Source: Cloeon dipterum (lineage: Eukaryota; Arthropoda; Insecta; Ephemeroptera; Baetidae). From it: a stretch of 64,000 nucleotides of DNA. Below, in pieces: positions 12,301 to 38,775 of the stretch (position 1 is its first letter; every line of letters starts with the position of its first letter). Both the position numbers and the translations under genes were made by a program. Below the pieces are notes generated by a model. The model had not been told where the DNA came from. It did no database searches and saw nothing but the letters and a program-made list of their open reading frames with translations. The DNA is taken from NCBI RefSeq assembly GCF_949628265.1, contig NC_088787.1:35576844-35640843 (forward strand), written 5' to 3'.

Positions 12301-15300
12301 GGGCCCAGACTAGTATCAAAAACACATCACTAACACTTTAAAAACTCGAAATCACGTATTTCTTGCAGAGAGGAATAAACTGCGCCACACTACATGTCTT
12401 CATCACAGGTGGAAGATCGTTCCAAAATTTTACCACTCGATAGTCGAACACATTTTTACCGAGATCAGTGCGGGCTGGCGGCTGCTGTAGTCGAGGGTGC
12501 AGCGGGTCATCTCCGCGGTGGACTCGCCCCAGGGTGATGCGTGACATCGCGTTGTAGTCGGTCACGCCCGCGAGGCACTTCTTGAAGAAAATGAGATCAT
12601 TGTAGACTAGTTGGGCTGGCACTGATAGGAGCTTTTGCTGGGCTGGTGGCGGAACGTGACGTCCGTAAATGAAGTGCAGCGCTCTATTTTGCACTCTGCA
12701 CATTTTCTCGATGTTTGTTTTTGTCGAGGGGTGCCACGCTGGGTTGCCGTAGAACAATTTTGGCTTGACTAGTGTAAGGTAGGCCATTCTTTTTACCCTA
12801 TTCGTGCAGCAGTGCAGGTTTCGGGCAGCAAACCCGAGGGTTCGGGCCGCGTTTTTACGCTGGACGTCAACGTGATGGTTCCAGCGCAGGTTCCTTGATA
12901 TGTTGACGCCGAGCAGCCGCTGAGTGGCGACATACTCAAGCGCCGCACCACCAACGGTATATTGTGGCGTGCAAGGTTGGCGTGCGCGCGTCACGTCCAT
13001 GACGACGCACTTCTTGGCGTTGAGTTTCATACCGTTGTTGGTGCACCATATGTCAATGCGCGCGAGGTCCTCCTGCAGGGCGTTGACGTCATCTTCGCAA
13101 CGAATTTGGTTGTAAAGCGTGCAGTCATCGGCATACTGGACGAGGTTTGTCTGCACAACAGAGGGCAGGTCGGCTACAAAGACGTTGAACAGAAGCGGCC
13201 CTAGGACGCTGCCCTGAATAACGCCTGAAGGTACTTCACAGGACTCGCTGCACGCTCCATTAAACCGCACGAATTGGCTACGACCTACTAAAAAGTTCTT
13301 TATCCATTTAAGTGCGGCGCCGTCAATGCCGTAGTGCTGCAATTTGGTTAGCAGTCGCTGATGGGGAACCTTGTCGAAAGCCTTCGCCCAGTCCAAAAAG
13401 AGGACATTCACGTGCGCCCCGCTCTGGTTATCCAACGCTGCTGACCAGTCCTCTAGTGTACGCATCAGCATCGTTGTGCAGGAGCGCGCGTTCCTAAAGC
13501 CGTGCTGCGAGTCTGGCAGAGTTTTATTGGTTTCAAAGAACATCGCCATCTTGTTCCTCACGAGCTTTTCCAACACCTTACCAACCAGCGAGGTGACACT
13601 TATTGGCCGCCAGTTCATGAATTTTGTTCTGTCACCGTCCTTCGGAATAGGCGTGACAGCAGCGCACTTAAAGTCAATGGGCAGATCGCTGGCTCGCAGA
13701 GAAAGCTGAAAAATATAAGTGAGGCTTTGTGAGATTGTGGTTGAACAGTTTTTCAGGAAAATTGCTGGGATTTTGTCAGGACCAGTGGCACTTTTGGCAT
13801 CCATTGTCTTCAGCAAAACCTCGACTTCTCCCGCCGCAATGGTCAGCTCAGTTAGTTTTGGCATTTGAGTTGGTGCTCGTCGGTAAAATGGGAAATCGAT
13901 TGCTGCTGAAGAGAAGTTATTCTTGAAGGTGGCGAGAAACTGGCTAGCGATGGATTGCGGCTCGCTGAAGATCTTTCCACCTGCTGTGAAGCTAGCTGTT
14001 TTTATTGGCACTTTGCTCTTAGAGTGGATGTATTTCCAGAAAGTCGCAGCGCCGCCAGGGCCTCGTCCAAGTGACCAAAACCAGCGATCTTTAGCTGCTC
14101 TGATCGCGCCCTGTGTAGCTTTCCTCGCCATCTTGAAATTGGATTTCGCCTCGTCGGATTTTGTTTTCTGCCACTCTGAAAAAAGCTGATCTTTTAATTT
14201 TAACATTTTTTTTAGTCCTTTATCAAGCCAAGGCAGCAGTCTGCGTTTGGTTCTTCTCCGTTTGGATGGCACGACCTCTGCGATACACGTGAAAACGGTC
14301 GTCTTCCACGCTTCCCATGCAGTGAACAAGTCATCGATGGTGCAGACTCTCAGTAGATTCTCAGCGAGACGCTCGTTGACCAGATCCCAGTTTGCGCGAC
14401 GCCAGTCTGGCTCCGTCGTCGGCACAGGTGTTGGTCGGCGGGAATCGACGTCCAGGTGCACGTGCAGGGCATCATGGTCGCTGACACCACTTACCACTGC
14501 GGCGGAGGAGACCAGGTTTGGTGCGTCACACAGAGAGAGGTCTATCAGCTTTGCACTTGTGTCAGTCGTTCTGGTCGCATTTTTTATTAGCTGAGCAAAG
14601 CCCAGGTCGTCAAAGCAGTCGAGGAATAAATCTGCAGGCGTGGCGTTTGGCACAGGTGGGTCGGCACTCCAGTCAATGGCCAGGTTAAAATCACCCAATA
14701 CGAGGCACGCGTCGTAATTATGCTGCACTTCTGCGGCAAGAGCGAATGAGCGCAACAACTCGTTATTTTGCTCAGGCGTGGAGTTCGGTGCTCTGTACAC
14801 GGAGGCGATCAGGATCTTTAAATTTGAAATTCGTACCTCTGCCCAGACTGCTTCAGCGAGGGTTTCAAGTTGCTCTTGGCGGCGCGGCATCAGGTGCGGA
14901 AGAATCGCCAGCAGGACGCCGCCCGCTGGTCGCCGCCCACCAACGCGGTCCTTCCGGTAAACGACGTACTGCGTTGGGATCACCTCATGGTCGAGCACGT
15001 CTGCGGAAAGCCAGGTCTCGTTGATCGCAAGGATGTCTGCCTGGTGCACGTCGAGAAGCGCAGCGATGTCTCCTGCCCTTTTCCTGTTTTTCAGGGACCT
15101 TGCGTTGAAGCAGAGCAGCGTGGTGGCTTTACCATTTCTTCTAGGGGCGGCTTGCAGCACAGGAGTCCTAATAATGGCATCGGGCAGGGACCATAGTGAG
15201 TCCGAAAAGGCTGGAAGCGAGCATGACATACAGATAAAACTGCTACTCTCTCTGAATTTCTTTTTTTCTGCTGAGCTTATTTTTAGGCAGGTTGCATGGA

Positions 15301-18950: not shown

Positions 18951-19270
18951 TGTGACCGGAATTCTATCGAATCCGGTCACGTGAAGAATTAATGCCCGAT
19001 CGTTGGGAAATAATTCTATCGCGGCGGAACACTATGCTGTTCACGCTTCTGAGGCGTGATTGCTGACAGGGCAGACTCATAAATTTTTCTCTTCTTGCGA
19101 AATGCCTGTTTTGTTAATGTTGAGCAACGCAAGAAAAAATAGACGATGATAACAAAATTTGTGCGTGCGTGTGGGCCTGGGGTTAGTAAGGTGAATGGAA
19201 TGTATTGTTTTTTTCCAACGAGCAGGTATTAAGTCTTCACGTGACCGGATTCGATAGAATTGCGGTCACA
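18951..19270. mobile_element. 320-bp MITE with about 37-bp TIRs, ending 113 bp before the Yellow start codon
   Basis: The left end TGTGACCGGAATTCTATCGA is mirrored by TCGATAGAATTGCGGTCACA at the right end, and the match continues inward through ATCCGGTCACGTGAAGA. There is no ORF. A partial inverted relative lies at about 61600-61689 (CGTGAACAGCATAATGT through CCGGTCACA). No target duplication is evident. Confidence 0.75.
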
Positions 19271-19382
19271 ACTCTCTGGTTGTGCGTCTCGTTCGTCGCT
19301 CCATTCCAAATTATCTCGAAATCCCGGTTGCGTTTTTCTTTGTTTTCGTGCTTTTTGTGAACAGTTGGAAGTGGCCGGAAGC

Positions 19383-21960
19383 ATGAATCCGTTCGTGTGC
19401 GTCATTTTCTTGCTCGGCCTTTCATCCCTGGCCATTGCCGTCAACTTCACTCAAGTCTTCGAGTGGAATGAAATGGACTACGAGTGGCCGTCGGACGCGA
19501 GCAGGACACAGGCCTTGGAAGCTGGAACTTTCAAACCAGAGAAAATTGAACCTCGTTTCATGGCTGTGCACGGAACAAGGATCTTCCTCAGCCTTGTGAA
19601 TTATGAAATCATCGTATTGAACTAAAATTTTAGGTGGAAAGCCAACAATATCGGAAGGAAAACTTTATTTACTGAGTTGGAAGTTAAGGATACGAATTTA
19701 AAATTTAGTTGCAGAAAGCCACTGCGGCTGGTCACGTGTCGAATTCCAAAAATTTCAGCTCTGTGCTAAAAGAGCCAATCATTTCCTCTTTTTGCAGGGA
19801 AATGGAGATTGCAACAAAATTGAAGGAGCAAGAGGGTTAGATGTAGATTCCGTTGGAAGGCTGTGGGTGCTGGACAACGGTAGCGAAAATTGCAACGCCA
19901 AAATATGGACCATTGACTTGTTTAATAACGGTCACACCAAACTAATTCACCGGTTTCCTTTTAATTTTCACATGCACGACTTGGTGCTTGACGAAACACC
20001 AAGCGGAACCTTCGTTTACATCTCTCGGTGGCCTAAACAACACATTGTCGTGTTTAGTTTGGAAAGAAATCAATCTTGGATGGTGGACACGTCAAGAGTC
20101 TATATTTTTTCCATTGCCCTGTCCCCGAAGAAGGAACCGAGACAGCTCTACCTCAGCAAGTTTTATTCCACTGAACTGTATTCAATTTCCGTTGCCGCAC
20201 TTCGCTCCGGAACTCGTTCTGCTATTCCGAAACTAATTGGAAAATGGTCTGCAATTGATTCATATAGAATGCTGATGGACAACCACGGGACCATGTTTAC
20301 CGCCTTTAGGTGGAAGAATTACACTTCCTCATGGAACACTTCGCAGCCATTTGCGGAGCAGCGTTTTCATGAGGTAGGTTCAAGAGCACGTGTTGTTTAA
20401 CGTAGATAGGCAACGAATTAAGTTTTCTTATTGTCGATATTGCTTTTTGGAACTATGGCTCGTTGAGCTGTGATTTACGAAACGGAGACGGTTGACGCGA
20501 GATAAAAATTTAATGTACTTGGCGACGAGGAGTGTGAATGTTTTTAATCTGAAGATTAATATTTTCCAATATATTTCAAAATAAAATATTTTAATTTCTC
20601 ACATTTGTGAACATAAAACATCTAATTAGCCAATTAAATGAAAAGTAGATAATTAATTAAATTAAGACGATGGAAGGAGAAATATAAAAATTACTTAGCG
20701 GGATAAGCATTTTATTTGCTTCTAGAGCAAGGAAATTTTAAAAAAATAATCGTGTGACGATTTGCACTAGCAGTTATTTCTGGCAGGGCAGAGAAGATGT
20801 AAAATTTTTCTTAGCTTACGCGAAAAATAATTTTTCGAACACGATCAAAAATTTAGCCCGCTACCGCGTCTTTAAAAAATATATTTTACAATGTTCACTG
20901 AATTCTTAATCATTGAGCCGTTGCATTGATTTTGGTTATAGGTCGCAGAACTGAAGACCTCTTGGCGGTTTATTTTTGCCTTGGATCCAATTGGTACTCT
21001 TTGGATGACGGTGTTTGATCAGGATAAAAAGCCAAAATGCAGGCTACTGAAGGCTGCAGTCAGTGCAAAACCCTTGAAGGCTTCGTCAAGTAAACATTTA
21101 ATAAAAATTTAATTGTTCTCGGAGTAAATAAGAGCTGTTATTCTCTTAGTAATTTTTTTAAAAGTTTTTACAGCCATTTTATGAAAAATTGGGTGCATTC
21201 TAAAAATTTCGAGAGTTTTCATTTTATTTTAGGGCGAAAACTAAACCAATAATAGGTATTTTTGCTTTTCAAAATGAGAAATAATATAGAGCTCCTGGTT
21301 TTATCGTCAAAACGTGTTGGGAATAATTCCAGCTCTCAATTTTTCTGTTTTTTTTTTTCAAAATATAAAAAAACTAAAAAGGCGCATATTTAAAGTACCG
21401 CAATGCGGATGGGATTCTTACAAATTAATTATATACAAATTCCGAAAAATGCATTCAATGCATATCGCAGAAACTGTTAACAAACCATTTTTTCAATATA
21501 TTTTTGCTAAAATAACTTGATTTTGATTTAATTAAATGACGGGTTTGAAATATCTACGTGCCAGAATATAAACCACCTCATGTCGATTAATCTTATTTCA
21601 GTTATGCCAGCATTTCCAATCACAACTGCCATTTCCCAAAACACCAAACCGTCGCCTGCTACCAGCACAGAACGATCCAGCGTGTCAATCCAGACCACAA
21701 CAAAATCTTCGACGCCTGCTGAGGAAACTGCCACAACCGAGGTGCAGGAGAGCAGCATCCTCAAAGAAGAATTGCACAAATATCGGCTAGTTATTATCAT
21801 TTTGATCTGCTTCATCGTGTTCTGCATCGTCTTGTTGGGTCTGATCATTCTTTGGCTCATCCTGAGACAGAGGAGGAACAACTCCCTTCCGCCAAACACC
21901 AACGAGGCCCAGGAAATGTCCGTTATCGCCGACAACCCTACGAGAAAAATCACGTGGTAG
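19383..21960 (+). CDS. Yellow/MRJP-family protein with added stalk and transmembrane helix; tail interrupted by an insertion
   Basis: Exon 1 (19383-19595) has a signal peptide (MNPFVCVIFLLGLSSLAIA), then FEWNEMDYEWPS and FMAVHGTRIFLSL, the standard start of the Yellow propeller. Exon 19798-20373 has GNGDCNKIEGARGLDVDSVG, GRLWVLDNG and FVYISRWP. Exon 20942-21089 has SWRFIFALDPIGTLWMTVF. The last exon starts at 21602 and encodes a Ser/Thr-rich stalk (TTTKSSTPAEETATTE), a single TM helix of about 27 residues (LVIIILICFIVFCIVLLGLI), the stop-transfer RQRR and a cytoplasmic tail. As it stands the frame ends at 21960 with eight residues read from an inserted element that begins at 21936. The roughly 45 residues expected between exon 1 and 19798 (the PRW..GVP segment) could not be placed in a clear frame. 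Most Yellow proteins are secreted and lack a TM, so a receptor-like role is inferred. Confidence 0.82.
21934..21935. other. AA target-site duplication, left copy
   Basis: The dinucleotide before the CCCTACGAG terminus matches AA at 38455-38456 after the mirrored terminus. Keeping one copy rejoins the codons GAC AAC TAC GAT in frame. Confidence 0.6.
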
Positions 21961-22368
21961 ACACGTGAAAAACTCGTGGTTTTTGCCACGAGTTCACGTG
22001 TCTTGAAACACGTGTCTACCACGAGATAGACACGTGTGAAGTCTCGTGTCAAATCACGTGATTTGGGAACGAGTCACGAGTTGACACGGGTTTGGAACGA
22101 GTTGAAACTACACTTTAATTTGCGTTTAATATATTTATTTGCAGCAAATTATAAACATTTCATGATATAATTACAAATATTCATACATATAGTGTCACAT
22201 AAAATAATTTTTTTACTCCATTTAACTAGAACAAGGGCATCAAAGTTTAAAAACTTGAGCATAGTATAGTGGATTTTACGATAATAACATACAAATTCTA
22301 TTAAAATTAGTTTCCAATTACTAGGTCTGCTCATTTAATTACTTATAGTAAATTGAACCGACTAAGCA

Positions 22369-22572
22369 TCTGCTGCTCGAGCTCGTCGAAGGGCTCGGTT
22401 CGCGCTCGAGAGAGATTCTGACCTGGCTCTCGCGCTCTAACCTTGGCAAGGAGGGTGGTGGTTGTGGTTGAAACCACAACCACCACCCTCCCTGCAAGAG
22501 AGCCAGGTTGGAACCCCTTCTTGAGTGCGTACCGAGCTTTTCGACGAGCTCGAGCTAGCCTCGAGCAGCAGA
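22369..22572. repeat. 200-bp imperfect hairpin with a 20-bp perfect core
   Basis: The outer arms TCTGCTGCTCGAGCTCGTCG and CGACGAGCTCGAGC…CTCGAGCAGCAGA pair imperfectly. At the centre the 20-bp arms at 22450-22469 and 22472-22491 (GGAGGGTGGTGGTTGTGGTT and its complement) are perfect, with a 2-nt loop. It lies within the outer 16.5 kb element. Confidence 0.85.
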
Positions 22573-22742
22573 CGCATTCGGCACAAAGTGGGGGCTCAGC
22601 CAGGAACAGTGCAGTTTTTTAAACAAAGATTTGTAGTGCCCAGCCCAACCCTCTTGAAATATAAAATATGAACTTATGGTTATATTAGACTTTAATGGGG
22701 AAATATTCTAAATAATTTTCAAGTCTGTCGATGAACAAATTT

Positions 22743-22911
22743 TCTCACGTGGCCCTTTTCTTCTTGGTTATCTTCCTCTGCATGAGCTGATCCTTCTCAG
22801 CGGCTGGAACATTCATCAGCTCTTTCTGCTGCTTCCTCGCTGATCCTTCTTCTCCACCTCCTCTTTCTTCATCTGTTTCAACCTTTTTCATCCGGGAGGC
22901 CTGCACACTCT
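22743..22911 (-). CDS. Possible terminal exon of an unrecognised gene in the outer element
   Basis: On the minus strand a good acceptor (CTATTTCAG, before 22911) opens a frame reading SVQASRMKKVETDEERGGG and ending QLMQRKITKKKRAT then stop. It is Lys/Glu-rich with a strongly basic end. No family was recognised. It could be the last exon of a gene whose upstream exons are those at 36 kb, cut apart by the Mutator-like insertion, but this is conjecture. Confidence 0.3.
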
Positions 22912-22919
22912 CTGAAATA

Positions 22920-24148
22920 GGAAAAAAAATGAAAATCAGTTGACATTGCTGATGCTAAAGTGGATTGATTAAGGGCAACAATTGAACATTTTTGAATAGT
23001 TGGATGCAAGAAATAGTTGATACTGAACAAATCACCTTGCTCCAGTCAAAATTTTTCAGATTTTCTCCAAAATATACAGTGCTTGACCACATTTGTTTGG
23101 CAGATTTCGATTCCTCTCGTCAAGATCTGTCCAGCAGTGGATGGCAATTTTTGGGATAAACTTTGTTTTGAAATAAAATCAGATTTCAAGTAGGGAGACA
23201 GTTTTACCGTAAGAAAAACGTGATAACTTTGCCAGCTTTTTTTCTCAAAAATTTACAATCTTTCTTAGGTCAGTTTAGGTTTCAAGTAATCCTAAGGGAT
23301 GAGTTGATGCATTGGCAACAAGCATTATCCAGGACTTTTCAGCATCAATCCTCTTTTACAGTCCTGGTGGCGGTAAATTTGCGCATCGCTCAACAATTAC
23401 CCAATTTTCACTGTTGAATTGATAATAATTCTTGCCCTTTTCTTGCAACAAGGAAATTCGCGTTTGGTTGTTGACATTATGCGCGATTTTTTCCACTACC
23501 AAGTAGCTATGGATTAAGGAGGATTGATATTCTGCAAAATCCAGAAATAGCTTTGATGCCATTAATTTAGGCATGCACTTATCCCTTAGGATTGATTCAC
23601 AGGAAGCCAAAATTGACCAAAGTAGCGCTGTAAATTATTTAGATAAGTGGCTGCAAAGTTAGCATGCTTTTCAAATGGTGAGGACCGTCTCCCTACTTGA
23701 AATCTAATATTACTTCAAAAATATGAGTTTCCCTATGAGTTTTTATGCGCTGTTGGACAGATTTTTGAATTTGAAGAAAATTTGAAAATATACTGAAGCA
23801 AATTACTTTTTTGAATATAAGGGAATGAAAGAACAAGTTATTAACTGCTTATTGCATACAACAATTCAAATAATTTTTAATTGTTGGCCTGTATCTATCC
23901 ACACTATATAAACAATGAAAACTTCATACGAGAAGCGTTATTTCATTATGGTGCATGATCATGGTTCAATACTTCAATAGGCCAAACAAGTTGAAAATAA
24001 AATCTAATTTTCCTAATTTTTATCTCCTCAGTAGCATATGTCGATAATTAATGAACAGCGAACTCAGAACTTAATATAAATTAATAACGTTCTCTTTATA
24101 AAATTTGTGTGCGCCCTGAATCAGCCGGCGGCCACAAAACGTGTAGCA
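22920..24148. other. Outer-element sequence left of the Mutator-like element, no gene recognised
   Basis: This is AT-rich sequence. Two stretches around 23160-23300 and 23560-23700 look like an inverted pair (TTTCAAGTAGGGAGAC… and …GTCTCCCTACTTGAAA; TCCTAAGGGATGAG and CTTATCCCTTAGGA), so a decayed foldback of about 0.55 kb is likely here. No coding frame is seen. Confidence 0.45.
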
Positions 24149-24157
24149 AACTAAAAT
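24149..24157. other. 9-bp target-site duplication (left) of the Mutator-like element
   Basis: AACTAAAAT occurs immediately before the GGG terminus at 24158 and identically at 35784-35792 after the CCC terminus. A 9-bp duplication is characteristic of Mutator-superfamily insertion. Confidence 0.93.
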
Positions 24158-26716
24158 GGGTGATGATATATACACGGATCGTCCGTGTATTTATCAAAAT
24201 TTTGTGCATATTTGTTATTTGCACAGACGATCTGTGTCAAAGGAATGCGTGTATTTGTTATTTGCACAGACGATCTGTGTCAAAGGAATGCGTGTATTTG
24301 TTAGTTGCAAAGACGATCTGTGTACAAGGGAATGCGTGTATTTGTTAGTTGCAAAGACGATCTGTGTACAAGGGAATGCGTGTATGTGTTAGTTGCAAAG
24401 ACGCTTATAGGATATGATACGGTGACGTCATAACATTCTTTTGGCGGTGAATTTTTCAAAATGGCGGACGAGCCAGTGGGTCCATGTAATGCGTTCCGCT
24501 TTCTAGGGTCATTTTTTGCCTTTTTAGGGTAGAAATCACGCCTAAAGTGACGAGATAAAGCGGTCCTGGCTTCACTAGCAACCTGTGCGATGAAGTTCTC
24601 TTGTGAGAAAACCATCCCTGGCCTCATGGGTGGCGTGTACCATGCAGATTCCTCATTCCTGTGAGAAAGCGACGCTGGCAGCATGGCCAAGCTTCGTAAT
24701 GCAGGTATAAATCTGTTCTATTATGTTTTTTAGTGATTTTAACTTTTGGAACCTTCGGCAGGCGCAGCCACTCAGTGTCCTTTCGGAAGATGCGATCCTG
24801 ATTGCTTTGCAGGCCGTGGCAGACAGATTTCCTGTGAAAAAGCGACGCTGCCAGCATGGCCAAGCTTCGTAATGCAGGTATAAATGTATATTATTCTATT
24901 ATTTAGTGATTTTAACTTTTGGAACCTTCGGCAGGCGCAGCCACTCAGTGTCCTTTTGGAAGATGCGATCCTGATTGCTTTGCAGGCCGTGGCAGACAGA
25001 TTTCCTGTGTAAAAGCGACGCTGCCAGCATGGCCAAGCTTCGTAATGCAGGTATAAATGTATATTATTCTATTATTTAGTGATTTTAATTTTTGGAATCT
25101 TCGGCAGGTGCTGCCATACTAATTTCTGTGAGGAATGCAAACCAGGCTTCGCGGGCAAAAATTGAATTAAAATAATTTTGAAAATATTTATTATTAAATT
25201 AATTAATTAGAGCTGAAGATATTTGTGCTCAGAGAAAATATCTTGGCATCATGAATATATCTGCGGCTAAATACAAAACGGGGATGGGCACGAAATTCAA
25301 AGAGGAAAATATTTGCCTGTTGTTTTTCTATTACCAAGCCGCCTGTGAACTGAGAACACTTTTGGCCCCCTCTCGGTCACTGGAGTCGCCATATTTTTCT
25401 ACGACTGCTGCGCCAATTGAATAGAAATGTCAATTTTCGTTTTTAACCACCTATGGTCTCCCTATTCCACTGGAGTTGTTTTTTATTTCAACTAAAGCTC
25501 CTATAACTAGACAAAAAGTGTTAAATTTCTTGTTGAATCACTCATGGTCCCCCTCTACTACTGGAGGTGCAAATTTTTAGCGTCTGCAGTGCCATTTAAA
25601 CGTACCCTATCGAAAACACTTCCAATACCCCTCTGCGTATGCAAAATTAACCGTTGTTACACTCAAAACCACACTTGACCCCCTCTCCAATACTGGAGTC
25701 GTGAATTTAGCGACCCAAATGGCCAATCTAACAACTACAACCCCTTTTCAAATCCTTACCACCTCAACTTCTCTCTCAACTCCTACTCTAAAGGGGGGGG
25801 GGCAAGTGTGCTGTTTTACCGAATTTTCCTCAATTTTACTGTCTTCTTTAAGGTTAGCCATTTGCTGATGCTGCAGTCGATGTTGGGCAGATTCTGCAAT
25901 GCAAATATCTGTGACAAAATCTACCCTGGCTCCAAGGGCAGACATGCATTGATACATTTATGAATATTTTTCTTCATCAGTGACTCGTTTTGTAGCAACA
26001 TATTAATTTATTAAAAATTTCAGGTCCCTTGCTAATTTCAACTTGAATCATCGGCTCGCGCTTAAATGCAGATTCCCTAATGGAGAGCAATGATTGCGCT
26101 GTACTGTGAGAGCAGAGCGACACCGTGAGTGATGTTCTGGCTGGCAAAGCAGATTCCAGCGAGCAGAGCAAAAAGCAGAGCGTGATGGGCAGTTCTTCTG
26201 CGACCTAAATTATCGGAAGGTATTCAGACTAACCTAATGCTGGTGCATATGGCTTGCGTTGATCCTTTTTATTGCTACCTTCCCATTTTTCCCCTTGGTA
26301 TATCTCTTTCCTTGGCATTGGCCATGTCTGCAAACTTGGTATGCCACTCATCCGACCAACTGTGGGTGACTTTTTAATGCATTGCCACTCCTTTTGGTCG
26401 CGTTTGTTGCGTACTAATTGCTTCTTTGCCAACCAATTTCAATACATAACTCTTGCAAGGATAGATAATAACAGAAATTTTCTCTGGCGATGAATTATTT
26501 TATTGATGGGTAGTAATCATACTGTTGGTTACATTTTATATTTACTGAGCGGTCTTTCTGACTGGTGTTGTAGACATGGCGTTTTTTTCCTTGCATTTTT
26601 GGCACGTCCAGTTCGGAATGTCGGTGAAGGTCAAGTCTTTCATTTGATCTTGGTCTGCTAATGGGTGATTGATGCACTTAGGATGGTACCAAGTCTCGCA
26701 TCCTTGGCACTGCATA
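24158..26716. repeat. Left terminal inverted repeat of the MULE
   Basis: About 2.56 kb, pairing with 33271-35783. Coordinates pair so that their sum is 59984 from 24301 inward. It includes subterminal 43-44 bp tandem units (24226-24400), tandem copies of a roughly 173-bp unit (24665-25135) and, at its inner edge, the 3' end of the transposase gene including part of the PHD finger. Open frames inside it are mirrored in both arms and are not genes. Confidence 0.92.
24170..24405. repeat. Subterminal 43-44 bp tandem units with short palindromes
   Basis: The end itself has ACACGGATCGTCCGTGT, a near-perfect palindrome. Behind it come units holding CACAGACGATCTGTG or AAAGACGATCTGTGT at a 43-44 bp period. 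The left arm has one more 43-bp unit than the right arm (35580-35775). Repeated palindromes close to the termini are typical transposase-binding sites; that role is inferred. Confidence 0.8.
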
Positions 26717-29700
26717 GTGCATGTATCATACTCTTGTGGCAAACTACAAATGCAAAGTAGATCCAGAACCTGCTTCTTTTCTGTGTTCTTGATGTTACGT
26801 GGTTGTGTACTTTTCGGATAGATTGAAGCTTTTCCTTCAGCAATCACATTCGCGGTGTGCTTTCGAAGTTTCGGCATCGCAAAGCACTTTTGGATGTCTA
26901 CAGCTCCTGTTGCACAGAATTCAGTTGCTATGGCCATAGCGTACATGGCACAATTATTTGAGCCTTTTTGGTACTCAATATTCTTCTTGCTGATGATGAC
27001 GCTTTTGTCACGCGCTTCCCTTGCAATGTATCCCATTTGAATGAGGATATCTTCTGGGATTTGGTCTCTTGTTGTTTTCATGCTATCAAAATAATCAAAT
27101 GACATTCCATCAAACACTACTGTCACGTAGTGCTCTCTTTTCTCGCTGTGGAGGATTTGAACATACGGCTTCTCATCAGAGTAATTGAATGTCAATGACG
27201 AGTCTTCAACTTTCATTACTGCAGGGGTGTGTAATCCTTGCACATGCTGACCGTAGGCATTTTTTAATATCGAAAGGTAAACTGCGATCACCTCATCTGA
27301 GATCATGGACTCTTCGTCAAGAAGGTCTTCTATTGCTTGCGCAGGTAGTACCTCTTGCCGCAGCAGTTTGATGTGTAGCTCATCTGCAAAATATTTAATG
27401 TGATTCACATTTAAACTTATGAAAGTCCATTAGCGCCATACCTGGGTCAGACTCAGCTGGAGCATATCCTTTTTTATACTTTGTCAAAGCTTTCCATCTG
27501 GTGTCAGACTTGGGCCTTCCAACTGCTGTTGTTGCTGGCCTTAATAGTGGTTTCTCTTTGGCCAACTGTACGACCGGGAATCCCCCAACTGAGAAAATTT
27601 TTATTTGCTCTAATTGCTCTAATTCATATTCTAAAACCTTACCTTTTGTCACTTTGACAGTCTTATGTCTGGTGTCAGCTTTTTCACGACTTTGGCATCT
27701 CTCTTCTTCCACTTTTGCTGATATACTCCCTTGTGTAGACTCTATTTCGTCCAGCTGTCTCAAAAAATCATCACTCCAATCATCATCATCTGTAAAATGT
27801 ATTTATAAAACGAGCATTATTATCTTTAATAAGACATGATACAAATCCAAATTTGACCTCTTTGTGCATGATTTTAAGGTTAAATTTGCCGTGTTTTTTT
27901 ATAATTAAATATCCAAGATGTGTTTGAATTTTGATAATTGGAAAGTAAGCTTTTTATGTGATTGCGTCACTTTGATATTTGGCATCTTTTAATTTCTTTC
28001 AAAATTTCAATAATTTTTAACTATGGAAGCGACACAATTCTCTTAATCTTAAAGTTGGAATCGTCATCCTTATATTCCAATAGGCATATTAAAAATTAAT
28101 ATTTTATCGCAAGTAAAATTTATCATTTTTATTCAATATATGTCATTGCTATCTAATTTATTTAATATTTAAATTGATTCAATATTACTCCATCTGGATT
28201 TCATGTTGTACTGACCTTCTAAATTTTGCAGAAGTGCATGATGGCGTTCAGTGATATGCTTTTGTATCTCCTGACCACTGATCTGCGCATCACACCCTTG
28301 TGATGTAGTTGGAGCACTTGGCTCAATCAAGTCATCTAAATGTTCTGCTGCTAATTCAGAAGGAGATATGATGACAGTACATCTCTTCGTCGGCGTGGAA
28401 GTCACTGTTTGAATTCTTGGTATTAGTCAGTGGTTATTAAGTTCGGGATTTACTATTACCCATTGGAGATGCAACTAATTCGTCGGAGGCCTCCAACTCG
28501 TCGTGGGTAGTGAGCCGATCGACATCTTCTATTTGATCTTCAAATTGATCTCTTTCGCTTTCCCCGCTCTGGTTGCTTTGTTCAATTTCTTGCCTTTCAG
28601 TTTCTCCTGAATTATCATGTATAATTATTTTAAGTGTAAATATATACACTTGAAAGATTAATATTGTCCCTGAGGGTTATAAATACTAGGAAAATGAAAT
28701 CACAGTAAAACTATCAACCTGCAGTCACTGCTACTTGAAAATCTTTTCCATTTTGCAGGCAGGAGAGAATCAGCTCCATCTTTCTCTGCACTTCCACAGC
28801 CACTTTCTCTGGGAGGGTAGAGCAGCAAGTTGCAATTTGCTTCACAATGCGCATGGTGCTGTTATATTTTTCTGCCTCCGTTCTGTTCCTCGGATTTCGC
28901 GTCTTGATCACAAGGCTATCCTTTACTTTGCCCACTGCTGACGAAGTGTCGCAGTTGTACTTGAGTAACCAACGGGGTGCGATGTCCTCGATGCCAAATT
29001 GCGGCATATTTGTGTCACTTCTTAACTTCATAATGTGCTTGCAAGGCAGTCCAGTATTTCCTCTGAATGGACACCTGCATTCGTTGACAGTGCTCGAGTA
29101 TTTCATCAATTGCTCGTCTTTCAGCTTAGAAGCATATGTCTCTTGCTTGCCAAGTAAGTGAATAACAAAATCTGTTCCCTTTCCCTGCAGGAGCTTCCTC
29201 GCAAGGGATTTGTCGTTTCCCTTGTACAAGGGAACCTTGCAGCTGAGCACATGTTTCAAGTGCTCCTGTTCATTGGTACTCACATTAGAGATGGCTAACA
29301 AGTTACTTATCAGCTCTAGAAGAGTTGAAGTCTTCTTCAGAACTCTTCCGATTACAGCATTGTGGCTTTCTGCCATGTTTGTGGTTCTTGTTCCAAAGTT
29401 CAGGGTCCTAGCTCGACCATACGAAGTCCACTGGTCAGCAATCTTATTCCAATTTTCATCATAGTACCTAAAATTGAAAGGATATTTCAATTCCTATTAA
29501 TTGTCAATGTAATACTAATTTATGCATGCGTGTTATGTTTTAAGAAGGTGATATTAACGTTTTCAAGATCTCCATCAAATTCTGTCTGGATTTTTATCAC
29601 ACTTTTTTAATGCCGATGATATATTAAAATAACAAAGAAATTTTTAGCGAGGTGACATAATTCAATTGCAAATAATTTATCTTGTAACTGAAACATTGAG

Positions 29701-31726
29701 AAATTTAAACTATAAGTTTCTTGAAACTATTCACATAATCACATGAAATCTTAAAAAATTGAAAATAGGTTTTATTACACAAGAATAAAATAAATTTGAT
29801 CTGGGAGACGCATTAATAAGAATTTATTTATTTACCTTCTCATTTCATTCGATTCATCTGGAAGAAGGTTCTTCAACTGTTCATAATATTTTTCGTAGTC
29901 AGCCCTAGTGTGGGACTTGTACATCAGTTGTTCTATGGTTTGCTGCACTTCTTCTCGGACGTCGGCTGGAGCATATCGAACGTGCTCAAGAAGCAGTTTG
30001 GCCGAGTGGAAGAGGCAGATATGGATGGCCACCTCAGGAAATATGTGCTCCACAGCAACCAATTCAACCATGGCTTTGTCGATCAGGATAGTTTTAATTT
30101 CTCTTTCAGCTTTTTTGTGCACTCTTTTAATGCACTCAAGGGCTGCTTCAACTGATGCAAGCTTCTCGTCACGCAGCACTGCGTATCCAACTACTCTTCC
30201 TTTTCCATGGCCATCCACAACCAAATAGCACACTATTGGCATGTCAAGTCTGTTCTTCTTGTATGTTGAGTCAAACTGAAGAACTTCAGGAAATTTGTCA
30301 AAATTGTTGACCATGCTGCTTGTTACGATCATGAACCCGATGATCTCTTCTGTGTCATTGCACATGACGCCATAAAATCCTAAAAAATATATAATTCTGT
30401 ACTTTCGAAAATTTTAAGTAAAAAATAGATTACTGCAAGCTCTTTTGTGCGCATTTTTATGATATTTGAAACGAAAATTCTCGACTGACGATTTTTTTAT
30501 GTGAGATTGTTTATATATGAGACTGTTAATAGTTAAAACCGCAAAATTGCTCATCTTCCTAAATTTGAAACTGCATTCCAAAATTTGGCTATGTTTCTAA
30601 TTTTGTTTCAAAACGTGTTTCCCGAAATGTAAGGGCAAAAGTGCCGTACACATATTTCTGAACAATCTTTTTTATTTTTGCGTTATTTCACTTCTTGATA
30701 GTTTAACCAATTTGAGATTACTTCCACTTAAAGCATTGAATTAATTTATCCGCGGTAAACGCTTATGACAACAAAACCTTTTGTATTTCTAATTTTCAAT
30801 GTATTCATTTGCGACTGGCCAGAATATGCATAAAAACGATACAAACTAAGTGAGAAAATCTTATCTGCATAATGTTTCCCGAAAGCTTTACAATATTTGT
30901 ACAAATTAATAGAATTATATGTACCATCCGGATCTGCTTTGTCGTGCTCCGATAGTACCTCCATTACCTCTGCCAGCTCCCTGTTTGCCTCTGGGACTTC
31001 TTGGTATTTTTGTAGCCGTTCCACTTTGAATTTTTGCCTGATACAAATTTATTATAAAAATAATGAATATGACCATTTTTCTCTGCGAACTTCAAGTTAG
31101 CCAAGTCTCTCGCCAAAAACATTTTCCCTGTTTCCTTCTGAATGATGTTTCTGCTGATGGTTCTATTCACAGGTCCAACAATCATCATTTTGTAGTTGGA
31201 TTTTTCTTCATCATCCAGCCGTCTGTTTTCTGGCAAATTCGCAAAAGTATGTTCATCACATTTGTGGTTATGAAGGCTTGGATCCAATCTTCCTTCTTTG
31301 ATGTAAATGTATTTGACTCCATTGTCGTCACTTGTAATGCCAGTTTTAAAGTACACGGGGCAGCCTTGCTTGTAAGATCTGCAAAACGCGCAGTTTTCAT
31401 AATGTGACCAAGAATAGCAAATTTTACGCAGAGAGATGAGTATATTTGGTGTGAATATGATCAAACCTTGTGTTCAGCTTTGGTTTCACCCCAGATTTTG
31501 GGGGCTTCTGTCTCGGTTGCCCACTAAGTTTGCATGCATAGTGGGCGTTCAAATACTTTATTTCCTTGTATTTTTCAGAACTCTTCAAAGTTTTCCTTGA
31601 AGCAACAGTCGTTGCTGACACCACAGAATATATAGTGAACGTAGCTTTCTGTTCGTTGTCCAAAGCCTTTTGAAAGTCTGAGTGAGACTTAAATCGCTGA
31701 CCTAATTTTAAATAGGGATGAGCCAT
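26542..31726 (-). CDS. MULE transposase with SWIM finger, Ulp1-type protease and PHD finger in one ten-exon gene
   Basis: Exons: 31726-31467, 31378-about 31075, about 31023-30925, 30379-29836, 29467-28719, 28606-28460, 28404-28216, 27789-27643, 27588-27442 and 27383-26542. All junctions keep phase (the second is least certain), giving about 1,140 residues. Exons 1-2 resemble a FLYWCH/FAR1-type DNA-binding finger (GCPVYFK…HNHKC). Exon 4 has the MULE core: LQFDSTYKKN (first Asp), KTILIDKAM (second Asp) and HICLFH. Exon 5 supplies TTNMAESHN (Glu) and the SWIM finger ECRCPF…PCKH. Exons 6-8 are acidic linker. The last exon holds EHYVTVVFD (His), FDYFDSM (Asp), YQKGSNNCAMYA (Gln, Cys), the Ulp1 catalytic set, then a PHD finger (CIC, CQGC, WYHPKC, CQKC). 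It presumably catalyses transposition; the protease may act on a SUMO-like partner. Confidence 0.87.
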
Positions 31727-31729
31727 CTT

Positions 31730-33070
31730 CCCTAAGTCAAATTAACACTGAGTCGCAATACTAAATGTGCTGGGAGAGAATGTCGTCTCTCCCACCCCAA
31801 CCATGAGACTTACGCTTTGAGGTGCAACAGTAATATATAAATAATAATATTAATAAGAGCAAATCATTCATTTAGTTTGCGTTATTCTTGTTGACTTTTC
31901 AGTATTTGCCGTTATTATAATTTTGAATCGCGTGATTTAATAAAATGGGAATAACATGTTATCAAATGTTACCACAAAAGGTAATATGTTCACCTCTCGC
32001 AATTTGTTCCAATGTCTACATGCAGAATGTAACCGGTTGTATTATGTGTGTCTGGATTGTTGTCTCCAAGTCAGTGCTCTCATTCATGCGATTTATATGT
32101 CTCATCAATCAAAACAATATTCTGTTTTATTCATTAATTGAGGTCTGCGATTTAACATTGCTACCTACAATACAAGCTTGATTAAATTTGCAATGGCGCG
32201 AAAGTAAAGGCGGAGTTTCTGTTTATAGATGCATATTATAATATACATATGGTCAGTTACCTAGAGGAAATAACTAGAACATTTGAGCGAAGCTGATCCT
32301 TTAACATGGTCAAAACAACTCAAAAAGAGCCAACATATAAACATAAATTTATAGTCTTCTTATGCAAAACAACGCATTCAAAATATATTAGAAAAACGAA
32401 ATAATTGATGTTCAATATCACAACCCTCTAGGAGTGTCATTTTTCTCTCATATTTAAAAATATTCTAGTGACAATGATTCCTTTGAAACTGACGAATGTG
32501 AACGTGATGTGATAGTAAGAATGGAATATAATTTACACACAATCTAAGAACTTAACAAGCGCCGTAACGTTTAAGTTTGAGATAAGGCAATATGCACATT
32601 CTAAAGGAGCATCAATTTAAAATATAATCACACACCTAGACTAACAATAAAAGTTGTTGGCCACATTATTGACCCGTGTAAATTTGAAACATAGCTAGTG
32701 CATTAAAAGCAACGTCAAATATATCACTTGCAAAAGGTTATCAGCATTTACAAAAAGTCCAACAAAAGTAGTTTTAATAATTTTATTCTATACAAAAACT
32801 AACAGCCTTTGAAACGTTACAGGCGGCTAGAGCAAACTTAATTTGCAACAAGTTTCCATGTATAAAAGGAGCTGCAATTTATACATTCAATTTATATAAC
32901 AGGTTCCCATATATAAAGGATTTTATCATCTATCATGAAGTAATTTAATTATAGTAAGATTTTGTCAGGACCATGTGTGTGGCCCTTCCTCACATGCTTA
33001 CTATAACTTTTTAAATGACATGCATTTCATGATTAAATAGCATGTAGAAAAACATTTAAACATTAAAACA
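31730..33070. other. MULE interior upstream of the transposase start
   Basis: This should contain the promoter and 5' leader of the transposase gene. It is AT-rich with no second gene, no repeat of the arms and no clear TATA box, so I cannot place the start site. Confidence 0.4.
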
Positions 33071-33076
33071 TGTAAA

Positions 33077-33270
33077 ACAGCACACTTGCCCCCCCCCCCC
33101 CTTTAGAGTAGGAGTTGAGAGAGAAGTTGAGGTGGTAAGGATTTGAAAAGGGGTTGTAGTTGTTAGATTGGCCATTTGGGTCGCTAAATTCACGACTCCA
33201 GTATTGGAGAGGGGGTCAAGTGTGGTTTTGAGTGTAACAACGGTTAATTTTGCATACGCAGAGGGGTATT
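33077..33270. repeat. Partial duplication of right-arm sequence at the inner edge of the right TIR
   Basis: The sequence from ACAGCACACTTGCCCC to GAGGGGTATTG is a direct copy of 34171-34362. It joins abruptly at about 33271 to the inverted copy of the transposase 3' exon. The breakpoint looks like a template-switch junction. Confidence 0.8.
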
Positions 33271-35783
33271 GCAGTGCCAAGGATGCGAGACTTGGTACCA
33301 TCCTAAGTGCATCAATCACCCATTAGCAGACCAAGATCAAATGAAAGACTTGACCTTCACCGACATTCCGAACTGGACGTGCCAAAAATGCAAGGAAAAA
33401 AACGCCATGTCTACAACACCAGTCAGAAAGACCGCTCAGTAAATATAAAATGTAACCAACAGTATGATTACTACCCATCAATAAAATAATTCATCGCCAG
33501 AGAAAATTTCTGTTATTATCTATCCTTGCAAGAGTTATGTATTGAAATTGGTTGGCAAAGAAGCAATTAGTACGCAACAAACGCGACCAAAAGGAGTGGC
33601 AATGCATTAAAAAGTCACCCACAGTTGGTCGGATGAGTGGCATACCAAGTTTGCAGACATGGCCAATGCCAAGGAAAGAGATATACCAAGGGGAAAAATG
33701 GGAAGGTAGCAATAAAAAGGATCAACGCAAGCCATATGCACCAGCATTAGGTTAGTCTGAATACCTTCCGATAATTTAGGTCGCAGAAGAACTGCCCATC
33801 ACGCTCTGCTTTTTGCTCTGCTCGCTGGAATCTGCTTTGCCAGCCAGAACATCACTCACGGTGTCGCTCTGCTCTCACAGTACAGCGCAATCATTGCTCT
33901 CCATTAGGGAATCTGCATTTAAGCGCGAGCCGATGATTCAAGTTGAAATTAGCAAGGGACCTGAAATTTTTAATAAATTAATATGTTGCTACAAAACGAG
34001 TCACTGATGAAGAAAAATATTCATAAATGTATCAATGCATGTCTGCCCTTGGAGCCAGGGTAGATTTTGTCACAGATATTTGCATTGCAGAATCTGCCCA
34101 ACATCGACTGCAGCATCAGCAAATGGCTAACCTTAAAGAAGACAGTAAAATTGAGGAAAATTCGGTAAAACAGCACACTTGCCCCCCCCCCTTTAGAGTA
34201 GGAGTTGAGAGAGAAGTTGAGGTGGTAAGGATTTGAAAAGGGGTTGTAGTTGTTAGATTGGCCATTTGGGTCGCTAAATTCACGACTCCAGTATTGGAGA
34301 GGGGGTCAAGTGTGGTTTTGAGTGTAACAACGGTTAATTTTGCATACGCAGAGGGGTATTGGAAGTGTTTTCGATAGGGTACGTTTAAATGGCACTGCAG
34401 ACGCTAAAAATTTGCACCTCCAGTAGTAGAGGGGGACCATGAGTGATTCAACAAGAAATTTAACACTTTTTGTCTAGTTATAGGAGCTTTAGTTGAAATA
34501 AAAAACAACTCCAGTGGAATAGGGAGACCATAGGTGGTTAAAAACGAAAATTGACATTTCTATTCAATTGGCGCAGCAGTCGTAGAAAAATATGGCGACT
34601 CCAGTGACCGAGAGGGGGCCAAAAGTGTTCTCAGTTCACAGGCGGCTTGGTAATAGAAAAACAACAGGCAAATATTTTCCTCTTTGAATTTCGTGCCCAT
34701 CCCCGTTTTGTATTTAGCCGCAGATATATTCATGATGCCAAGATATTTTCTCTGAGCACAAATATCTTCAGCTCTAATTAATTAATTTAATAATAAATAT
34801 TTTCAAAATTATTTTAATTCAATTTTTGCCCGCGAAGCCTGGTTTGCATTCCTCACAGAAATTAGTATGGCAGCACCTGCCGAAGATTCCAAAAATTAAA
34901 ATCACTAAATAATAGAATAATATACATTTATACCTGCATTACGAAGCTTGGCCATGCTGGCAGCGTCGCTTTTACACAGGAAATCTGTCTGCCACGGCCT
35001 GCAAAGCAATCAGGATCGCATCTTCCAAAAGGACACTGAGTGGCTGCGCCTGCCGAAGGTTCCAAAAGTTAAAATCACTAAATAATAGAATAATATACAT
35101 TTATACCTGCATTACGAAGCTTGGCCATGCTGGCAGCGTCGCTTTTTCACAGGAAATCTGTCTGCCACGGCCTGCAAAGCAATCAGGATCGCATCTTCCG
35201 AAAGGACACTGAGTGGCTGCGCCTGCCGAAGGTTCCAAAAGTTAAAATCACTAAAAAACATAATAGAACAGATTTATACCTGCATTACGAAGCTTGGCCA
35301 TGCTGCCAGCGTCGCTTTCTCACAGGAATGAGGAATCTGCATGGTACACGCCACCCATGAGGCCAGGGATGGTTTTCTCACAAGAGAACTTCATCGCACA
35401 GGTTGCTAGTGAAGCCAGGACCGCTTTATCTCGTCACTTTAGGCGTGATTTCTACCCTAAAAAGGCAAAAAATGACCCTAGAAAGCGGAACGCATTACAT
35501 GGACCCACTGGCTCGTCCGCCATTTTGAAAAATTCACCGCCAAAAGAATGTTATGACGTCACCGTATCATATCCTATAAGCGTCTTTGCAACTAACACAT
35601 ACACGCATTCCCTTGTACACAGATCGTCTTTGCAACTAACAAATACACGCATTCCCTTGTACACAGATCGTCTTTGCAACTAACAAATACACGCATTCCT
35701 TTGACACAGATCGTCTGTGCAAATAACAAATATGCACAAAATTTTGATAAATACACGGACGATCCGTGTATATATAATTACCC
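33271..35783. repeat. Right terminal inverted repeat of the MULE
   Basis: This is the inverted counterpart of 24158-26716. It begins with a reverse copy of the PHD-encoding end of the transposase gene, then arm sequence, then tandem roughly 173-bp units (34850-35320, each with GAAGCTTGGCCATGCTG) and the subterminal palindromic units. Confidence 0.92.
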
Positions 35784-35792
35784 AACTAAAAT
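35784..35792. other. 9-bp target-site duplication (right) of the Mutator-like element
   Basis: AACTAAAAT directly after the CCC terminus, identical to 24149-24157. Confidence 0.93.
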
Positions 35793-35992
35793 TTAGCCTA
35801 CGAGGAAAATTAAATAGGCCACTGCAATCAAATAGGTCAGAAAACTAGCTGGAAATTATACGCCAATTGAGATGCACCTACATTAATTAAAAGTGGCAAA
35901 ATGTTGGCGTCGAGTTGAACTACTATAATATAGCATAATTTTCTTAACACTTTGTATTTTTTTTAAAATATAGTAAAGCAAACTTACTCTGA

Positions 35993-36945
35993 ATGCCCAT
36001 CAGCCTTGCTCTTTGGCAGCTCCACACTGGTTGCTAATCATCCGTCTCATCCTTTATTCCGTCTTGTCTGAAATCAAAATCAATTTTGAGAATTAGGAGC
36101 AACACACAATTAAACTCTATACAAAATAAACAATGATAGCATTTTATTGCTCTCTAAAAATGCGATTTTATAATTAAATGAAGTCTAGGCCTTTTTTAAT
36201 TGAATGTTTTACGCTCAAGCACATGTGAAGTATGCATACACGTTATGTTTTTATTCATTTACGGCAGTGAAAATACTGCAAATTGTTAAAATGAGTAAAA
36301 ATAAATTTAAAACAAATAATAATGTACATAAATGCATGGATAAGCAATATTTTCTGCCGGGTTACACATCTCGCCAGTTTTTATGAGAATCCCATAATAA
36401 AATTAGGGTTGTAACTTTGCGGCGAAGTGTCATTTTCCATTATGTATGCACAGTCGAGAAGAATTAAGCGTCAGTCAGAATTTACGACTCGATACATTAA
36501 TGCTTGTTATGTATGTATGTATACATACTAGACAGTAATATTGTCCGGCGAAAGGAAAAAAATGCGAATATTTAAATATGTATGCACATACTTAATTATT
36601 TAATGAATCAAATCTGTGCATGGAAAAATTAGTTTTCGCCGCCGAGTTACAGTTTTTACAACCCCAAATAATGTTATAATGGTATTCTCATAAGAACTGG
36701 TGAGATGCGTAACCCGGCAGAAACTGTAGCTTTTCCATGTGTATTAGTGATTGACATGCAAATTTTACGTATTTACGGATAGATTACAGAAAACTAAAAT
36801 GATTTTAACACATACCTGGCGTCATTGAGCTCATCCATAACGTCGTACATACACCAGCCGCAGCAGTGAGAATTATCTTTGTAGATGATGAACGGTTGAG
36901 CAAAACAGTCGCGCGACACGTTACTTGCATACTGGTGCACTAAAC
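35993..36945 (-). other. Two putative spliced exons of unknown gene in the outer element
   Basis: On the minus strand the segment 36937-36818 reads HQYASNVSRDCFAQPFIIYK, then DNSHCCGWCMYDVMDELNDA, up to the donor CCAG|GTATGT. A second segment, 36065-35993, starts after GATTTCAG and would extend it by RQDGIKDETDD before a stop; it ends at a donor AGA|GTAAGT. Phases agree between the two. No family was recognised and no clean start Met is visible. It could be a small gene of the outer element or a noncoding transcript. Confidence 0.25.
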
Positions 36946-36949
36946 ACTC

Positions 36950-37870
36950 GGATAATTAGCTAATTGTGCCCTTAATTGTTTGTAAAAGCTGGACGTAAAT
37001 GCGCGCGTGTGTGCCATGTCGTTGGATTTTGGATTCTCTTTTTGCCGTTGGCGTTGGCTTTGGCTGCGTACGCACTCTATTTCCGATCCTGCCTGTGCCT
37101 GCATGTGCATGCTAACTCCCGCCCCCACTTTCTCTTTTTCTCTCTATTGCCGTTGCAGCTTACGCAGCAAGCAGCAACACCAGCCGCTCCTGCCCCTCCT
37201 GTCCCTCCTTGCTCTTCCTAGCTGCGATCTTTCTTGCGCGCGAGGATGAAATTGAAAAGCTGGTGAAAAACCAACCGCGCGAAGCGCAAGCAGTGGGATT
37301 ACCAGCGCCCTGCACTAAAATGTATGCGAGCAAATTTTTTAATTCCGCATCCCTTATTATGTTCCACACCGCAAACAGCAAAATATTTAATATAATTATC
37401 CCCCCGGATATGTGGCGGAAAATAATTAGAAAATTTTAACTTCAAAGAATTCATAGGAGCTAAAATTATAATAAAAATTAAACTTATTTTAGAATTCGTG
37501 ATATTCAATGATTATTCCCTGCTGCAATATCAAAAGTAATAGAAAATGAAAAGCAAAAAGATTAAAATAAATAAATTAAATATAAATGTAAAGAAAAAAA
37601 TTCAAATTTGTTTATTAATTTTAGAATCGGCTGTTTAATTGATTCAATTAAATAATTATTCCACATAATTTAAAATAAAAAACGAAAAAAACCATTTTGG
37701 TGAATTATTCATAGCAAATAAATTTAAAAATGAATCCCTAAATAAATTATGTATCTAAATTGTGAAAAATATGTTATACACATTACACCATATACTATGT
37801 AGGATCCCCACTTACTTTTTTGCATTTCTTTTTCTTTTTTAAAATTTTTTGAGAGCAAATTATTAGCCGG
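36950..37870. other. Outer-element sequence, no gene recognised
   Basis: The part 36960-37260 is GC- and pyrimidine-rich on the plus strand and could be the promoter side of the minus-strand exons at 36 kb. The rest (37400-37860) is very AT-rich. No feature with defined ends was found. Confidence 0.35.
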
Positions 37871-37879
37871 TGCTACTCG

Positions 37880-38454
37880 TGTAACGTGACTCGAGTTAAA
37901 CACGTGTGAAACACGTGATCTCCGACACGAGTTTAATTGACCACGTATTTTCTAAGAATTTTGAACATTTCTTCACTTTATTTGTATAAATTTTATAACA
38001 TTTTAATAAATTTTTATAAAACATTAAATTTAGCAACTCGCATATATTGACTCGAGTTGAACACGTGTTAAACACACGTGTTTAAACACGTGATCTCCGA
38101 CACGTGTTTAAAGCCACGTGTGTAACACGTGTTAAACTCGAGTTAATATATGCGAGTTGCTAAATTTAATAATTTTGCCGTAAAAATATTTTATTAATGA
38201 TAGAAAACTGCAAAAAATATAGTTTAAATGCAATTGAAGCAAATATCAAGGTATTTAATTTTTAACTCGTGTCCGCAAACACGTGTTCATCACGTGATTA
38301 TCACGTGTTCCGGAAATATCAAAAACACGCAAAAAAAGAAAATTTTCGGTCAAAATCGATTAAGGGGGCCTCAATTAACCCAGGAAAAATATCGAAAAAA
38401 ATATTCGAAGGGGTCACCAAAAACTCGTGTCAACACGTGATTTTTCTCGTAGGG
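37880..38454. repeat. CACGTG palindrome cluster and hairpin at the right end of the outer element
   Basis: About a dozen CACGTG motifs occur within 570 bp, mostly as ACACGTGT. The segment 38030-38165 folds as an inverted repeat (AGCAACTCGCATATATTGAC pairing with TTAATATATGCGAGTTGCT). The mirrored left end (21951-22060) has six more. They probably serve as subterminal binding sites. Confidence 0.8.
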
Positions 38455-38456
38455 AA

Positions 38457-38775
38457 CTACGATGACGTCGGCCCCGCGGAAGTGCCGCTGTACGAGGAAG
38501 TAAAACACGACCAGGCCGCTGCCCCTGCTGCTCCTAGTCTCTACGAGCGGCCCATTATTCTCAGCCCGCGATCGGCGAGAAGAGTGAAAGCGATGCCTCC
38601 GAGGCAGAGGACTTTCGAGAAATTCGGAGAGGCGCCTCGTGCCCCAGCCCAGTTAGAGTACGACTACGTCCGCACTGCTGAACCGGAACCTCTGTACGAT
38701 GACGTTGCTTCCGGTTCACCACATTGTGAAGACACTTCTTCCGAGTCTGCGCAATACCTGAAAATCCTGCCATGA
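38457..38775 (+). CDS. Detached C-terminal tail of the Yellow-like membrane protein
   Basis: Read in the frame GAC AAC TAC GAT recovered by removing the inserted element, this gives NYDDVGPAEVPLYEEVK, then SLYERPII, LEYDYVRT, EPLYDDVASG and a terminal QYLKILP with stop at 38773-38775. The tail is about 105 residues, Pro/Ala-rich, with six tyrosines in acidic settings (YDDV, YEEV, YDYV, YDDV), the pattern of SH2-domain docking sites. In this assembly it is cut off from its gene by the 16.5 kb insertion. A polyadenylation-like AATAAATAAT follows (about 38817). Confidence 0.75.

Follow-up and report, generated by a model that had tools for sequence, protein, structure and literature searches.

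A 16.5 kb insert in a putative Yellow/MRJP-type exon of Cloeon dipterum: a probable TRC/CACTA element with a nested Mutator-like element

What kind of DNA has split a coding exon in two and left the halves in matching frames? The question is raised by a 64,000-nucleotide stretch of the genome of Cloeon dipterum (Ephemeroptera; Baetidae), here called the window (NC_088787.1 of assembly GCF_949628265.1, positions 35,576,844 to 35,640,843, or C2:35576844-35640843), in which a putative Yellow/MRJP-type gene is interrupted by a 16.5 kb insert with mirrored ends. The initial annotation, made from the letters of the window, took the insert for one element that fits no nameable superfamily. I examined the whole genome of 190 Mb in 10 contigs. 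It was found that the insert is composite: a Mutator-like element (MULE) of 11.6 kb (24158-35783) is nested in an element of 4.9 kb. Very probably, the outer element is a non-autonomous member of the TRC group of CACTA transposons, which landed in the last Yellow/MRJP-type exon, was later hit by the MULE, and was mobilised in trans. Positions of the features are collected in Table 1.

The host gene was identified as Yellow/MRJP-like from a match to PF03022 (E value 8.5e-19) in the open frame 19702-20400. The exon downstream of this frame, whose start at 21602 was placed by eye from an AG, codes for a hydrophobic, transmembrane-like segment and a tail, and the two may belong to one putative gene. 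Directly outside both ends of the insert lies AA. When the flanks are joined with one AA, the frame runs open through GAC AAC TAC GAT to a stop at 38773-38775. At present, the left host frame reads seven codons wholly within the element (PTRKITW) and then meets a stop; the premature stop had been noticed correctly, while the eight residues counted at that time include the junction Asn or the stop. The right-hand frame is still open.

Is there an empty site? The joined exon was compared by alignment with three of the loci that match the host tail. At the junction, the paralogue L065 reads GTTATCGCCGACAA followed directly by CTACGATGACGTC, exactly the letters predicted by removing the element and one AA, and 590 of its 670 aligned columns are identical to the joined exon. 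The paralogues L066 (504 of 644 columns identical) and L067 (498 of 643) likewise carry no insert at this point, where a few of their bases differ. Thus, the empty site is confirmed by paralogues, not by an allele. As judged from these alignments, the two flanks are parts of one putative exon, and the in-frame empty site first proposed from the window is borne out.

The nested structure became clear from the alignment of the insert to its closest copy (L037, on contig C5). The insert matches this copy at 21936-24157 (99.9%) and at 35784-38455 (99.6%), with nine bases common at the break. What lies between starts with GGGT, ends with ACCC, and is flanked on both sides by AACTAAAAT. In L037 and L038, AACTAAAAT is present once and uninterrupted, which gives the empty site of the MULE; in L040 and L041 the word at this place differs slightly (AACTAAGAG and AACTAAAAG), and L039 has no match to the flank of this site. 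The 9-bp duplication itself was read at the window copy only. The inverted-repeat arms of the MULE are about 2.5 kb long, and over their main block (24237-26714) the two arms agree at 2471 of 2478 positions. The MULE transposase domain PF10551 scores 64.6 bits against a cut-off of 27.6. A second copy runs from about C4:8055860 to about 8067617; its ends, 11,758 bp apart, are 98 and 100% identical over 243 bp to those of the window copy, and its transposase core is 100% identical, in the same relative place and on the same strand. MULEs are described as having duplications of 8-11 bp and often long terminal inverted repeats (TIRs) (PMC6446971; this and the other sources cited are used here from excerpts). 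With a MULE domain, a 9-bp target site duplication (TSD) and long TIRs, the stretch 24158-35783 is a Mutator-type transposon inserted into the outer element.

By the description in its table alone, PMC6446971 offers two groups that the nested element resembles. The Rehavkus row lists a 9-bp duplication, a PHD finger and a minisatellite, and the nested element likewise has a 9-bp duplication, a MULE transposase domain, a PHD finger and tandem repeats; its weak SWIM-like cysteines recall some Phantom elements. Its arms of about 2.5 kb are longer than the TIRs tabulated for Rehavkus and Phantom (26-400 and 18-613 bp). At an E value of 0.001, the probable continuation of the transposase (28714-29493, minus strand) had no profile match. 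For the accessory open reading frame (ORF) with the PHD finger, the structure prediction had a mean pLDDT of 35.8 and was not used; this ORF also contains a pattern that I take to be C48-protease-like, which was not confirmed. A search of viral contigs for relatives of the transposase core returned eight pattern matches, none of them confirmed. 

Does the outer element belong to a family? When up to three mismatches are allowed, its 21-bp TIR is matched 57 times in the genome and the reversed control 3 times, which is beyond chance; a 14-bp pattern with one mismatch gave no excess over its control (61/61 vs 72/56). The initial annotation had suggested looking for other copies, and for different termini among them, with the terminal 200 bp. 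This search gave 23 matches for the left end and 23 for the right end. Twenty copies including that of the window, picked by their TIRs, have both ends readable; left out were L053, L054, L055 and L059 (no readable partner), shorter partial end matches, and TIR-like matches outside the fetched stretches. These pairs share their termini, so that this check came out in favour of the initial annotation: all 20 have CCCTACGAG ends (CCCTACAAG at one end of L056, L057 and L058), an agreement that is not independent of the selection by TIRs. An exact 2-bp direct repeat lies just outside the ends in 19 of the 20 pairs, where about 1.25 would be expected by chance at equal base frequencies, so that the AA flanking the window copy is a true duplication. 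A hidden longer duplication was rejected, since none of the 20 pairs has one at any length from 3 to 10 bp. The duplicated sequences (AA, AT, AC, TT, CC, AG, TG, CG, GT and TA) vary, indicating that the target has no set sequence.

The five closest copies (L037-L041) have ends 97-100% identical to those of the window copy and span 4.8-4.9 kb, not 16.5 kb; among the other pairs, six copies span 3.7-3.9 kb and the rest 4.9-12.6 kb. The C5 copy is 4,879 bp in length and its ends are 100% identical. With the nested element removed, the window copy shows 7 substitutions (0.14% of 4,878 aligned sites) and 7 gap columns relative to the C5 copy, and 51 to 261 substitutions relative to L038-L041. Judged by the 7 substitutions, the insertion is recent, as the initial annotation had supposed from the open right-hand frame. 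The window copy of the outer element contains no ORF of at least 150 amino acids; thus, it was most likely mobilised in trans. It contains 19 CACGTG hexamers against 0.53 expected (order-1 Markov, whole element), and 18 of them lie in the terminal 250 bp on the left (6) or the terminal 700 bp on the right (12).

Two features bear on the placement of the outer element. Animal TRC elements (DeMarco et al. 2006) have a CCC core in their ends, 2-bp duplications and a Transposase_21 domain, with ends such as CCCTAG... in Tribolium and CCCAGT... in Aedes (PMC1636069), and Spongebob of Hydra was put in TRC on its CCC ends and 2 bp (PMC4298943). Since the outer element has CCC ends and a 2-bp TSD, the TRC group of CACTA fits it, and the earlier view that no superfamily does can be set aside. 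Like SmTRC1 of Schistosoma, the Tribolium and Aedes elements and Spongebob, it shows a terminal CCC and a 2-bp target duplication, and the Tribolium TIR likewise begins with CCCTA; related transposase motifs, in relaxed form, are found in a probable autonomous partner described below, and shorter derivatives stand beside a longer coding copy. Unlike the TRC elements in these excerpts, the family has its own TIR sequence, asymmetric CACGTG-rich subterminal regions, non-autonomous copies of 3.7-5 kb, and a 10.5 kb candidate coding copy that includes an ORF weakly similar to DUF4806. The outer element thus appears to represent a new family of a known kind, the TRC/CACTA type.

Where would the transposase come from? 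A 10,478-bp relative at C4:32400411-32410888 ends in the TIRs of the family and is flanked by a duplicated TG. Compared with the window copy, 205 bp of its left end are 92% identical and 644 aligned columns of its right end 81%; about 1.3 kb of its right end is about 89% identical to the shorter copy group. It codes for a 693-amino-acid protein with weak similarity to Transposase_21 (PF02992, E 0.0014) and DUF1258 (E 0.0012), and it has a 91-amino-acid ORF with weak similarity to DUF4806 (E 3.9e-04), all under the Pfam cut-offs. The 693-amino-acid protein contains a pattern like TRC motif III (D...CXXC), and the D-D spacing of its motifs is 78 against 80 as published (PMC1636069), while TRC motifs I and A (L/V/I-D-X-L/M-H-X3-L-G) match with one or two positions relaxed. 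When the genome was scanned with PF02992 at E 0.1, this place alone matched (E 0.02, under the cut-off), and none of 14 control genomes did. The transposase core of the protein has 27 matches in the genome at 27-100% identity, with relatives at C1:42674764, C3:9651169 and C2:34879394 among others. Thirteen further matches (on C1, C2, C3, C4 and C5) fall in frames of at least 300 amino acids and are themselves free of stops; additional families of this type may still be active in the genome. I consider that the C4 relative is probably the autonomous partner of the outer element.

Several points weigh against this assignment. The Transposase_21 scores (18.3 bits for the protein and 20.4 bits in the genome scan) fall short of the cut-off of 28.6. 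Strict motif I fails (Thr for Phe/Tyr, WA for WP), and strict motif A fails as well (Phe for L/V/I). Since PF02992 matches the C4 place only, diverged relatives of the 693-amino-acid protein also go without a match at E 0.1. Among the 20 pairs, L056 is the sole copy without the 2-bp match; for comparison, the 2-bp repeat was found in only 7 of 14 SmTRC1 copies (PMC1636069). The candidate autonomous copy is also the only one among the 20 pairs, and its transposase could therefore be a passenger. The outer element would then be moved by a transposase of another superfamily, an explanation to which this single occurrence and the low Pfam score lend something, and which I hold to be improbable. 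When the C4 element was compared with itself, no second pair of inverted repeats was seen to enclose the ORF (one of very short length might escape notice), and CCC ends with a 2-bp TSD fit TRC irrespective of the ORF (PMC1636069, PMC4298943).

Very improbable, in turn, is that splicing neutralises the insertion, by removal of the element or of the exon before it through an acceptor in the right TIR. The right TIR (38440-38454) reads TTTTTCTCGTAG and then GG, a plausible 3′ splice site; this pyrimidine-rich acceptor would cut at 38452/38453, and SmTRC1 was found filling almost exactly an intron (PMC1636069). The codon position of the acceptor equals that of the broken exon's own start (determined by hand; one in three by chance), so that exon skipping would stay in frame. 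On the other side, the stretch 21880-21960 holds four GT donors, none of which can be joined to this acceptor in frame, and the only in-frame pairs consist of a weak donor after 21921 and two poor acceptors in the host tail. In-frame removal with the TIR acceptor and a nearby GT donor was thus rejected.

To describe the insert as a single unbroken transposon of 16.5 kb, from an unclassified superfamily and with its own transposase inside the window, is almost certainly wrong, even though exact outer TIRs surround the transposase ORF: this ORF belongs to a separate unit with its own duplication and inverted ends, whose C4 copy lies where no outer-end match was listed. The description is refuted by the copies of 4.9 kb and by L037 and L038, in which AACTAAAAT occurs once. 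Just as implausible is an assembly artefact joining unrelated sequence, which the long near-identical repeats of the MULE, hard to assemble, might suggest and which the exact target duplications and the paralogous empty sites for both insertions contradict.

Under the favoured explanation, a cut-and-paste TRC/CACTA element nested by a MULE, the host gene family would have spread before either insertion, as the uninterrupted paralogues suggest. The 4.9 kb non-autonomous element then entered the last coding exon of one family copy, duplicating AA and placing a stop after seven element-encoded residues. The MULE came last and entered the middle of the outer element, where it duplicated 9 bp and brought the insert to 16.5 kb. 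For movement in trans, the outer element would depend on a CACTA-type transposase supplied from another locus, for example the 10.5 kb C4 relative; this transposase may recognise the CCCTACGAG ends, perhaps aided by the CACGTG repeats near both ends. The locus may then offer a clear example of a CACTA-type (TRC) family in an animal, with the 2-bp duplication seen over many copies and a probable autonomous partner in the same genome. It also illustrates how two known transposons, one inside the other, can be mistaken for a single new element when only one locus is read.

In CACTA elements of plants, the subterminal repeats are asymmetric, and TNPA-like proteins bind to them (PMC2613891). The outer element resembles those excerpted there (En/Spm, soybean Tgmt*) in its asymmetric, stem-loop-capable subterminal repeats near a short TIR and in a putative Tnp2-type transposase of the family. 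In contrast, plant ends are CACTA and the TSD of Tgmt* is 3 bp, while the outer element has CCCTA and 2 bp; a plant-type CACTA was rejected on these grounds. The family might be a two-gene animal CACTA system, in which the coding copy supplies, next to a Tnp2-like transposase, a putative DUF4806-type protein that takes the role of plant TNPA and binds the CACGTG arrays close to the ends. This idea is doubtful; if true, an accessory DNA-binding function would have been recruited independently from plants.

Table 1. Positions in the window of the broken host exon, the outer element and the nested element (TIR, terminal inverted repeat; TSD, target site duplication)
Feature	Positions	Strand	Evidence
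Broken host exon, left part (stalk, hydrophobic segment resembling a transmembrane one, beginning of tail)	21602..21935	+	Open frame 21532-21960; paralogue alignment (L065, L066, L067)
TSD AA, left copy	21934..21935 (right copy 38455-38456)	.	2-bp match in 19/20 paired copies, 3-bp in 0/20
Left TIR of outer element, CCCTACGAGAAAAATCACGTG	21936..21956	+	Exact 21-bp inverted repeat
Left subterminal region, CACGTG-rich (6 of the element's 19)	21936..22185	+	0.53 expected in whole element, order-1 Markov
Outer non-autonomous TRC/CACTA-type element (probable), left part	21936..24157	+	99.9% to C5:9893728-9898606 (L037)
Premature TAG stop made by insertion	21958..21960	+	Frame ends at 21960
9-bp TSD AACTAAAAT, left copy	24149..24157 (right copy 35784-35792)	.	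Single at empty site in L037, L038
Nested Mutator-like (MULE) transposon, 11,626 bp	24158..35783	.	Domains, 9-bp duplication; second copy at about C4:8055860-8067617
MULE long inverted-repeat arm, left; contains tandem repeats of 43-44 bp and of 173 bp	24158..26714	+	
MULE accessory ORF with PHD finger	26542..27429	-	PF00628 E 1.9e-07, over cut-off
Probable MULE transposase continuation, SWIM-like cysteines	28714..29493	-	PF04434 E 0.14, below cut-off; by eye
MULE transposase core	29832..30413	-	PF10551 E 1.2e-17, PF21056 E 2.4e-22, both over cut-off
MULE long inverted-repeat arm, right	33270..35783	-	
Right part of outer element, beyond the nested element and the second copy of its TSD	35793..38454	+	99.6% to L037 over 35784-38455
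Right subterminal region: 12/19 CACGTG; imperfect palindrome (75-bp arms, 88%) at 38018-38175	37755..38454	+	
Right TIR of outer element	38434..38454	-	Exact 21-bp inverted repeat
Right part of broken host exon: tail and stop	38455..38775	+	Open frame; 42 genome tail matches, self included

A 12.6 kb copy of the outer family (L060 and L061, C4:30486617-30499191) has extra ORFs, which may encode a P-element-type transposase, and it probably carries a further nested insertion. Its right end is preceded, at 0.2 kb, by an additional forward TIR, and the same was seen in L050.

The tail of the host gene (19245-21960 and 38455-38775 of the window) has at least 42 matches in the genome including itself, all on C2, and at least 30 of these have no stop. 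The disrupted copy is left without its tail, while the tails are still open in many paralogues. Members of this family, some of them a few kb apart, have a Yellow/MRJP-type frame, after which come an exon that looks transmembrane and a tail containing several tyrosines. Yellow proteins are secreted, and a transmembrane exon is hence unusual; a literature search for Yellow proteins with transmembrane segments found nothing. In L066 (800-874) and L067 (793-900), a stretch 75-77% like the signal-peptide region of the window (19271-19385) lies 0.3-0.4 kb before the tail exon, too close for the Yellow domain to fit. Because of this short distance, some paralogues may lack the Yellow domain. Elsewhere in the window, a long interspersed nuclear element (LINE) ORF of 1143 amino acids without stops (12338-15769, minus strand) encodes a PHD finger, an endonuclease and a reverse transcriptase, and a fragment at 45804-46238 (minus strand) looks related to it by eye.

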